36,115 nucleotides of DNA from Candidatus Nomurabacteria bacterium (GTDB lineage Bacteria > Patescibacteriota > Minisyncoccia > Phycocordibacterales > UBA9973), in assembly GCA_026395965.1 (NCBI GenBank), contig JAPLXS010000012.1, forward strand, positions 1-36,115, in the 5' to 3' direction. A model generated the notes under the pieces. That model saw only the letters and a program-made list of their open reading frames with translations. It was not told the origin of the DNA and did not search any database. A program made the position numbers and the translations under genes. Each line of letters starts with the position of its first letter. The first letter of the stretch is position 1. Shown piece after piece: positions 13,090-14,754 of this stretch.

Positions 13090-13162
13090 GCGGAATTAGT
13101 TTAATGGTAGAACTTCTAAAATAGAATAACATGCTATTTTAGTTCCCGAGTTCTGATACAAA
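13090..13162 (+). pseudogene. tRNA-Gly-like 5'-half pseudogene
   Basis: gcggaattagtttaatggtagaactt matches bacterial tRNA-Gly 5' half; then a 9-bp hairpin ctaaaatag/ctattttag and a degenerate T-arm; no complementary acceptor 3' strand. Confidence 0.6.
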
Positions 13163-13164
13163 GT

Positions 13165-13235
13165 GTGGGATTGTTTTAGTGGTAGAATGCGACCTTCCCA
13201 AGGTTGAGGCACGAGTTCGATTCTCGTATCCCGCA
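13165..13235 (+). tRNA. tRNA-Gly (anticodon CCC)
   Basis: Acceptor gtgggat/atcccgc, D-arm, anticodon loop ttcccaa, T-arm acgag ttcgatt ctcgt. Confidence 0.93.
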
Positions 13236-13289
13236 CATATTTTAAAAATACACTCTTAATAGAGTGTATTTTTAAAATATGTGCGGGAT
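13228..13289. terminator. 29-bp perfect hairpin overlapping the tRNA-Gly 3' end; probable bidirectional terminator
   Basis: atcccgcacatattttaaaaatacactct-taat-agagtgtatttttaaaatatgtgcgggat. Confidence 0.85.
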
Positions 13290-13417
13290 AGCAAGCCAAC
13301 TTCTTGGCTTGCGTACGAGAATCGAAAAGCTTTTCGTTCTCCGATGGATATCGGAGCGAAAAGGTGTACTGAACCAGTAAGGTTCGATAAGTGTATTCAC
13401 GGTCTCGTTCCCCGTAT
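13281..13417 (-). ncRNA. Candidate structured RNA/element copy 1 (tRNA-Gly-associated, tRNA 3'-half mimic)
   Basis: P1 tgcggg/cccgta; P2 gcaagcca/tggcttgc; P3 acgaga-cg/cg-tctcgt; P4 cttttcg-tt-ctccgat-ggat-atcggag-cgaaaag; P5 gaacc-agtaa-ggttc. Same architecture as 14633-14754. Strand inferred. Confidence 0.6.
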
Positions 13418-13509
13418 TTAACATTACGAATCCCTGTCAATATTTGCATATTTTATCACTATGCTATAATAAACCTACAATAAATTATAAGTTAATATAA
13501 ATATATATT

Positions 13510-13749
13510 ATGAAAAAAGTAACAGTATACAGTACGCCTACATGCCACTTTTGTCACATGGCAAAAGATTTCTTTAAGGAGAAAAATATAGCATTCGAAG
13601 ATTTCGATGTTTCTGTAGATCTAGAAAAAAGAAAGGAAATGGTAGATAGAAGTGGTCAGATGGGAGTTCCAGTTATCATGATTGATAATCAAATAGTTGT
13701 TGGGTTCAATAAACCAACAATCGTAGACCTTCTAGGAATTACAGAGTAG
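13510..13749 (+). CDS. Glutaredoxin-like protein
   Basis: VTVYSTPTCHFCHMAKDFFKEKNIAFEDFDVS...GVPVIMIDNQIVVGFN. Confidence 0.9.
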   Translation: MKKVTVYSTPTCHFCHMAKDFFKEKNIAFEDFDVSVDLEKRKEMVDRSGQMGVPVIMIDNQIVVGFNKPTIVDLLGITE

Positions 13750-13774
13750 TAATTTACTCAGTTATGACGTATTA

Positions 13775-13808
13775 TAAGAGCATTCTGATTTAGGTCAGAA
13801 TGCTCTTA
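13775..13808 (+). terminator. Hairpin terminator-like structure after glutaredoxin gene
   Basis: taagagcattctga-tttagg-tcagaatgctctta. Confidence 0.65.
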
Positions 13809-13810
13809 TG

Positions 13811-13827
13811 TATTTGCCTTAGTAGTT
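13811..13827 (+). repeat. Partial upstream copy of the tRNA-Arg 5' end
   Basis: tatttgccttagtagtt vs tatttgcctccgtagtt at 13849-13865 (15/17). Confidence 0.5.
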
Positions 13828-13853
13828 TTTTTGGGTTAACCCTTTATTTATTT

Positions 13854-13925
13854 GCCTCCGTAGTTCAATGGATAGAACAGTTCCGTCCTAAGGAATAGAT
13901 GCACGTTCGATTCGTACCGGAGGCA
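13854..13925 (+). tRNA. tRNA-Arg (anticodon CCT/CCU)
   Basis: Acceptor gcctccg/cggaggc; anticodon loop gtcctaa. Confidence 0.92.
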
Positions 13926-13975
13926 CCCTTGTGAGCACCTTTTATTTTTAATCAAAATATGATAATTTCCTTTAT

Positions 13976-14275
13976 ATGGATCAGGAAACAAAGCAGTTAT
14001 TGGAGGAAAACCTAAGGTTATCTAAAGATAATAATGTTATGCTTAATAGCCTTGTTCATGCAAAAAAGTTAAATACCATTTATCGTTTTGTTTATTGGAG
14101 TATAATTATATTATTAACAATAGGTTCATACTATTTTATACAACCATATCTAGGGACTCTAATGAGTTTGTACTCAGGTGGAGCTACAGATATACAAAAT
14201 GTTGGAAATGTTAAAGCAAAATTAGGTGATCAACAACAGATAGATGAATTATTGAAACAGTTAAAAGAAAATTAG
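13976..14275 (+). CDS. Small hypothetical single-TM protein
   Basis: MDQETKQLLEENLRLSKDNNVMLNSLVHAKKLNTIYRFVYWSIIILLTIGSYYFIQPYL... Confidence 0.7.
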   Translation: MDQETKQLLEENLRLSKDNNVMLNSLVHAKKLNTIYRFVYWSIIILLTIGSYYFIQPYLGTLMSLYSGGATDIQNVGNVKAKLGDQQQIDELLKQLKEN

Positions 14276-14302
14276 TTTTATGTAAATAGGAATGTAGAAT
14301 AA

Positions 14303-14445
14303 GGAATGCCGAGATATGCTGTTTTGGTAGAAAAGCATGTTATGTTAAAGTAGATTATAAATTTTTTAGATGAGGAATGTTGAGATATGCTGTTTTGGTA
14401 GAAAAAGCATGTTATGTTAAAGTGGATTGTAAAGTTTTTAGATAG
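14303..14445 (+). repeat. Two tandem degenerate units (periods ~71 and 72 bp), each starting with a tRNA-Phe 5'-end-like segment
   Basis: ggaatgccgagatatgctgttttggtagaa... and ggaatgttgagatatgctgttttggtagaa..., then the true tRNA after ggaatgccgagatagctcagttggtagag. Confidence 0.75.
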
Positions 14446-14450
14446 GGAAT

Positions 14451-14523
14451 GCCGAGATAGCTCAGTTGGTAGAGCGCTCCCCTGAAGAGGGATAGGTCCC
14501 CAGTTCAAATCTGGGTCTCGGCA
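14451..14523 (+). tRNA. tRNA-Phe (anticodon GAA)
   Basis: Acceptor gccgaga/tctcggc, D-arm gctcagttggtagagc, anticodon loop ctgaaga, T-arm cccagttcaaatctggg. Confidence 0.93.
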
Positions 14524-14634
14524 CAAATGATATTAAACCGTGTATGAAAAAGTATTTACCTTCAGTTAGATAGCCAGTCCAAAGTCTTACGTCTCTACTC
14601 AATAAAAAAATACCCGTCAGGGTATTTTTTTATT
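14508..14634. repeat. Direct repeat A: tRNA-Phe 3' end plus trailer plus terminator
   Basis: aatctgggtctcggcaca...ttaccttcagttagatagccagt.caaagtctt.cgtctctact...; second copy at 14736-14861. Confidence 0.85.
14601..14634. terminator. Intrinsic terminator (bidirectional)
   Basis: aataaaaaaatacccgtcagggtatttttttatt. Confidence 0.85.
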
Positions 14635-14754
14635 GTGCCGAGACAACACATGAACTACTTCATTTGTGTCCAGATTTGAAAGACTTTTCATTATCAGCTT
14701 TGCTGATTGAAAAGTACCCGACTAAGTAGTAGTCTAATCTGGGTCTCGGCACAA
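14633..14754 (-). ncRNA. Candidate structured RNA/element copy 2 (tRNA-Phe-associated, tRNA 3'-half mimic)
   Basis: P1 ttgtgccgagac/gtctcggcacaa; P2 acacatgaa../ttcatttgtgt; P3 ccagatt/aatctgg; P4 cttttca-tt-atcagc-ttt-gctgat-tgaaaag; P5 gacta-agtag-tagtc. Minus-strand -10-like TACTAT is 7 nt before GCCGAGA. Strand inferred. Confidence 0.62.

Follow-up and report, generated by a model that had tools for sequence, protein, structure and literature searches.

Structured elements with arms matching the neighbouring tRNA, probably mobile, behind tRNA genes of Patescibacteria and other phyla

The window analysed here covers bases 1 to 36,115 of contig 8 in a 698 kb Patescibacteria genome (G000), with Nomurabacteria, Kaiserbacteria, Yonathbacteria and other Patescibacteria among its kin. 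Within it, the genes for tRNA-Gly (13165-13236) and tRNA-Phe (14451-14524) are each followed by a structured element, at 13281-13417 and 14633-14754, respectively, and the positions given for this pair in an earlier note were borne out in the sequence. On the tRNA-sense (plus) strand, the order starts with X, i.e., the 3' part of the tRNA, which a hairpin often follows. Next come an inverted copy of X, interrupted by the P2 hairpin, then a core made of the P4 and P5 hairpins, and finally a direct copy of X (hereafter X1 for the first X and X2 for the second). The parts of both elements are the following:

tRNA-Gly, 13216..13237, plus strand: X1, made of the tRNA-Gly T-loop, T-stem 3' strand, acceptor 3' strand and CA
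tRNA-Gly, 13238..13279, no strand assigned: perfect palindrome (hairpin) joining the tRNA end to the inverted copy, resembling a bidirectional terminator
tRNA-Gly, 13280..13289, plus strand: inverted copy of the acceptor 3' strand, discriminator and CA of tRNA-Gly, matching at 10/10 positions
tRNA-Gly, 13290..13314, plus strand: P2 hairpin insert of 25 nt with loop AACTTCTT, seen by covariation
tRNA-Gly, 13315..13326, plus strand: P3 5' strand, an inverted copy of the tRNA-Gly T-arm
tRNA-Gly, 13330..13363, plus strand: P4 core hairpin with a TT bulge of 2 nt, seen by folding and covariation
tRNA-Gly, 13371..13385, plus strand: P5 core hairpin, seen by folding and covariation
tRNA-Gly, 13391..13400, plus strand: P6, a small hairpin inside the direct T-arm copy, seen by covariation (helix 7)
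tRNA-Gly, 13383..13416, plus strand: X2, the direct copy of the tRNA-Gly 3' part (T-loop, P6, T-stem), its acceptor portion decayed
tRNA-Phe, 14504..14525, plus strand: X1, the 3' part of tRNA-Phe
tRNA-Phe, 14559..14633, plus strand: extra copy of the tRNA-Phe 3' part, decayed, then a hairpin; intact in the relative G023 (L193)
tRNA-Phe, 14634..14644, plus strand: inverted copy of the tRNA-Phe acceptor 3' strand and CA
tRNA-Phe, 14645..14669, plus strand: P2 hairpin insert of 25 nt with loop AACTACTT
tRNA-Phe, 14670..14680, plus strand: P3 5' strand, an inverted copy of the tRNA-Phe T-arm
tRNA-Phe, 14684..14734, plus strand: core hairpins P4 (14684-14714) and P5 (14720-14734), seen by folding, covariation and model match
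tRNA-Phe, 14736..14753, plus strand: X2, the direct copy of the tRNA-Phe 3' part (repeat identity of 96% over 23 nt)

The 25-nt inserts claimed for both elements are exact, AGCAAGCCAACTTCTTGGCTTGCGT occupying 13290-13314 and AACACATGAACTACTTCATTTGTGT 14645-14669. Other parts of the original description had to be amended. The P1 stem is complete at the Phe copy, whereas at the Gly copy its 3' strand is decayed and pairs via G.U. The stem named P3 is that of the tRNA T-stem, and it also encloses a short extension (ATCG/CGAT type) and, in its 3' strand, the P6 hairpin (GTG-TATT-CAC). The hairpin taken for a shared terminator is instead the centre of a palindrome linking the tRNA end with its inverted copy; at the Gly locus, its arms (13227-13256 and 13261-13290, 30 nt each) are 100% complementary. 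The covariance-model match at this locus stops at 13408, within X2.

The 5' sides of these tRNA genes also carry tRNA-like sequences. A degenerate tRNA-Gly-like sequence, probably a pseudogene, lies immediately 5' of tRNA-Gly (13090-13164), and tandem decayed copies of a tRNA 5' end (acceptor 5' strand and D-arm-like hairpin) with leader sequence are found at 14308-14450. Decayed tandem 5'-end copies also precede tRNA-Lys, Arg, Met and Val (L001, L003, L005, L007), the arrangement being the mirror image of that on the 3' side, and the copy preceding tRNA-Ser(tga) (L003) has a AACTGCTT hairpin of its own.

The stretches around tRNAs of the window genome were read directly and the remainder was searched with a covariance model built from 12 of its copies. 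At a threshold of E<1e-3, 32 copies were retrieved across the genome, instead of only the two initially noticed. With few exceptions, each lies immediately 3' of a tRNA gene, of a decayed tRNA remnant or of the tmRNA, and the strand is the same in every case. Behind most of the 37 tRNA genes scanned, a palindromic hairpin precedes an inverted copy of the acceptor end of the same tRNA, which in turn precedes a hairpin with a AACTGCTT-like loop. In this inverted copy, the whole acceptor 3' strand is represented, together with the discriminator base and, depending on what the gene encodes, CA or CCA. The tRNA genes of this genome mostly encode the discriminator and CA (e.g., at window positions 13236 and 14524), a few encode CCA, and elements reproduce whichever end their tRNA gene has. 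Copies away from called tRNAs adjoin remnants of tRNA-Glu (L026, L039), of a tRNA-Arg 5' half (L030) and of tRNA-Ser (L035), the remaining ones being part of an array (L040) or located at the end of a contig (L028), and one copy lies downstream of the tmRNA (L310). At L035 (G000:C2, ~520-610), a tRNA-Ser-like gene with intact arms has lost its acceptor 3' strand and is still followed by an element, which outlives the tRNA.

Compared with shuffled sequences, both elements fold strongly on the plus strand (z of -5.5 for Gly and -8.3 for Phe) and on the minus strand (-6.7 and -9.0, respectively). In the alignment of the 12 copies from one genome, 89% of the cells were paired and two-sided changes occurred in 28/37 pairs, with 99 covarying cells vs 32 in shuffled alignments and 9-15 when the pairing partner was slid. 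In a second alignment, made of distant copies with apical loops trimmed, two-sided changes were found at 24 of the 39 pairs. Compensatory changes thus exceeded chance in both alignments (0/500 shuffles), as expected for a structured non-coding RNA, and the covariation noted in the first two copies proved strong. In the P2 stem, seven pairs vary with compensation and the loop is near-invariant. In the distant copies, the P4 core reads GCC-[GGA]-GCG-[AU]-stem ... CGC-[GA]-GGC, and P5 reads GGUCGCG ... CGUGACC with a bulge of one base; the cores of the window copies are a variant of this core in which the 2-nt bulge is retained.

Over 186 copies, the tRNA-sense strand was more stable than its complement by a mean of 4.2 kcal/mol (0.5 in control windows) and was the better fold in 155 of them. 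G.U pairs numbered 546 on the plus strand vs 392 on the minus strand and, in the distant-copy alignment, P5 retains a conserved G.U at two positions on the plus strand. These features argue that the RNA, if made, would be of tRNA sense. The minimal form (L308), made of the tRNA with CCA, an inverted T-arm, the core and X2, starts right after CCA. No terminator separates tRNA and element in L308 or in L196, so that co-transcription of both would be possible there.

These observations bear on the earlier proposal of either a tRNA-linked RNA gene or a mobile element, in which the RNA gene was a terminated minus-strand transcript mimicking the tRNA 3' half. Such a convergent RNA, ending in the tRNA 3' half and sharing its terminator, would target charging or processing enzymes. 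The minus strand does end with the T-loop, T-stem, acceptor strand, discriminator and CA/CCA of the cognate tRNA, followed by a symmetric hairpin, and the copy includes the discriminator bases. We nevertheless consider this reading very unlikely: the better fold and the G.U pairs lie on the plus strand, some forms lack the terminator or the acceptor copy, and the TACTAT box at the Phe locus does not amount to a demonstrated general minus-strand promoter. It is the mobile-element option that found support.

The relation between arms and tRNAs was quantified on 234 non-redundant P2 hairpins, of which 181 lie on the same strand and at most 300 nt behind a tRNA or tmRNA, nearly all isoacceptors being represented. 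The inverted acceptor arm matched the cognate tRNA at 9/9 positions in 77/181 copies, vs 6/874 comparisons with non-cognate tRNAs, and the inverted T-arm matched at 7/8 positions or better in 153/181 copies, vs 50/874. As anticipated in the earlier note, copies beside different tRNAs therefore reproduce the local acceptor and T sequence, and the derivation of the arms from the target tRNA is well supported.

Homologs, which had been expected, proved to be numerous in Patescibacteria and beyond; detection relied on models derived from the window genome and on P2, and the counts below are not independent because element copies are related sequences. A first model (R1) was positive in 84 of 100 relatives and 52 of 64 genera, with up to 35 copies per genome and a very uneven copy number, from 1 to 35 detected inside one genus. 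With a second, general model (R2), 32 of the 240 genomes sampled across the phylum were positive, and 9/10 listed loci from distant Patescibacteria were directly 3' of a tRNA on the same strand. Loci picked by the P2 sequence alone gave a similar picture, 57/80 following a tRNA or tmRNA encoded on that same strand. Genomes with Elusimicrobiota loci hold 4-21 copies each; 12 of the 14 loci are behind a called tRNA, the other two behind uncalled tRNA- or tmRNA-like 3' ends, and in most of them the tRNA end is cleanly repeated, in direct orientation, at the close of the element. Among Chlamydiota, nine copies were found in one Parachlamydiales genome and one weak match in another Chlamydiae genome. 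A pattern match in Thiohalobacter was discarded as due to chance, since the model gives no hit in that genome. The family thus amounts to a short non-coding unit scattered in many copies, as MITEs are. Besides, a related element with P2 and P4 lies behind protein genes in Campylobacterales (L080, L146), with fixed arms of its own and in tandem in L146.

The syntenic Gly-glutaredoxin-Arg-Phe-Hsp20 region was compared in 20 genomes of the genus. At tRNA-Gly, 4 of the 16 genomes scored have the element and 12 have an empty site, the tRNA being intact in all; the tRNA-Arg and tRNA-Phe sites are likewise mixed, with intact tRNAs either way. In L199, the flank following the second X is that of the empty sites, and the added DNA therefore corresponds to the first X plus the element. 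Hence, empty orthologous sites and a target duplication, both looked for in MITEs, are found here. For 74/102 copies, the nearest core belongs to a different genome and follows a different tRNA, and strict vertical descent at each tRNA was rejected on this ground. This is illustrated by the highly similar cores found behind tRNA-Lys (L225, G006), tRNA-Gln (L234, G004) and tRNA-Trp (L246, G012), the arms and T-loop residues of each copy being those of the tRNA that it follows. Mobility of the family is thus well supported, and gene conversion between resident copies, by swapping cores, could resemble movement.

This leads to the main alternative, that of an old resident RNA inherited behind most tRNAs, in which complementarity would be kept by a function such as pairing with the tRNA precursor or its processing, while gene conversion homogenises cores and slippage between X1 and X2 causes frequent precise loss. 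In the window genome, most tRNA units are followed by an element, which would fit, as would the Phe and Leu-taa copies of G000 and G023, which look vertically inherited, the inverted acceptor copy that stays exact even where its direct-copy partner has decayed, and the uncoupling of P2 from the core. However, the spread of copy number inside one genus, the empty sites behind intact tRNA-Gly genes, the highly similar cores shared by different species behind different tRNAs, and the tandem and decayed copies adjoining tRNA remnants all speak against it, and we regard it as rather unlikely.

The preferred reading, which we consider probable, is that of a non-autonomous mobile element that duplicates the 3' part of a tRNA on entry and has its stems built from that part. 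The family would comprise non-coding, non-autonomous units of ~100-200 nt that enter tRNA and tmRNA genes specifically at the 3' end. What moves would be the structured core, i.e., P4 and P5 closed by P3, in tRNA-sense reading. At insertion, X, which runs from C56 in the T-loop along the acceptor strand to CCA, would be duplicated, leaving the tRNA intact upstream and a second X downstream. The new copy would also gain an inverted X, usually split by P2 at the acceptor/T-stem boundary, so that the P3 and P1 stems would consist of host tRNA sequence and differ at each site. The direct repeats X1 and X2 flanking palindromes would also promote precise loss.

The moving unit does not appear to be simple, as the P2 stem does not move with the core: it is equally divergent whether cores are highly similar (6.9/14 positions shared) or unrelated. 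Moreover, P2 is missing in some lineages and from the tmRNA copy of the window genome. In L292, L319 and L330, X2 is followed on its 3' side by a further hairpin, inverted acceptor and P2 5' arm, ending at the P2 loop before unique flank. P2 may therefore be a joint and not a component of the moving unit. The X2 junction almost always falls near C56 of the T-loop, and the opposite end of the duplication ranges from CCA to positions within the flank. Such a pattern fits a first cut at a constant site and a second cut whose site varies. Separately, the duplicated tRNA part that accompanies related cores (CCTTGA...GAAAGG) at tRNA-Arg (L196, L201) and tRNA-Phe (L207) starts within the anticodon arm, which makes a second target position.

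More tentatively, every insertion may copy the target tRNA 3' part, inverted, into the element body, an idea of self-re-templating that we rate as slightly less likely than not. Since the inverted arm facing the X2 junction is complementary to the adjacent X, a strand running from X through the core and folded back would create it; for instance, a cDNA primed at a T-loop nick could snap back to copy X, or another fold-back synthesis could operate. Such copying of the arms from the target during insertion would explain why they fit each tRNA while cores stay alike. The RNA would come from the tRNA promoter, and the enzyme would presumably be encoded elsewhere, in the genome or the population. 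If so, the stems would always be of host tRNA sequence and the element would adapt instantly to any tRNA or tmRNA.

Searches for RVT_1 and Y1_Tnp returned no autonomous partner. A reverse transcriptase, the enzyme expected with a SINE-like retroelement, is absent from the window genome and from many carriers, several rich ones among them, and the window genome has a single weak Y1 transposase. Neither tracks element copy number, and both candidates were rejected as present partners for want of correlation, although they may have acted in the past. Nor did terminal inverted repeats of constant sequence, such as an autonomous transposon would share, turn up, the end arms varying by tRNA.

Local template switching at palindromes of tRNA ends, i.e., tandem inversion duplication without any element, would yield the X - inverted X - X order, and the turning-point hairpin is indeed a near-perfect palindrome. 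However, random rearrangement would not yield a constant core, and both the core and P2 show conservation, with compensatory changes, from one phylum to another. Pure rearrangement is rejected because of this conservation, and we consider it extremely unlikely as a full account; template switching may still describe the origin of the inverted arms.

With respect to known families, only tRNA reached threshold in Rfam 15, the other matches being far below gathering scores, and a known RNA family was thus rejected. Exact matches to the P2 pattern were absent from viral contigs, and phage and plasmid records gave no match to the element, so that an origin from a phage or plasmid integrating at tRNAs was discarded. 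No description of the family was found in the open-access literature searched. Together with the many homologs and the strong covariation, the absence of an Rfam match agrees with the undescribed structured family initially proposed, and the family is large and apparently undescribed. Its novelty depends on the arms being copied at insertion, and would be less if they are old and co-evolved. The family, present in three phyla or more, would represent a class of mobile elements that have their own structure rewritten by the target. In the tiny genomes of Patescibacteria, elements can number about one for each tRNA unit, raising the questions of the moving enzyme, of arm copying and of the effect on tRNA transcripts, and offering a model for a structured family overlooked by annotation pipelines.

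As each element holds inverted and direct copies of its own tRNA end, it resembles a mobile element rebuilding its stems from the tRNA it entered. We know of no element whose arms are made of host tRNA sequence instead of fixed terminal repeats. Like MITEs and the palindromic repeats of bacteria, e.g., Rickettsia palindromic elements, these elements are short, non-coding, palindromic, multi-copy, non-autonomous and insertion-polymorphic; unlike them, they strictly target tRNA/tmRNA 3' ends, duplicate ~20-30 nt of tRNA, and possess an internal inverted copy of the target, a covarying three-helix core and site-specific arms. Integrases and genomic islands at tRNA 3' ends also duplicate the tRNA 3' part and leave a functional tRNA, whereas the present elements are of ~150 nt, have neither integrase nor cargo, and have inner arms fitting each tRNA. 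With target-primed non-LTR retrotransposons and SINEs they share one fixed junction (here the T-loop), a variable target duplication and a structured sense-strand RNA, here predicted, but poly-A is absent and the window genome lacks a reverse transcriptase; to our knowledge, the target-complementary inner arm has no counterpart among them. Finally, tandem inversion duplications show the same X - inverted X - X order and palindromic turning points, from which the present elements differ by the conserved P2, P4 and P5 hairpins held at fixed positions within the copies.
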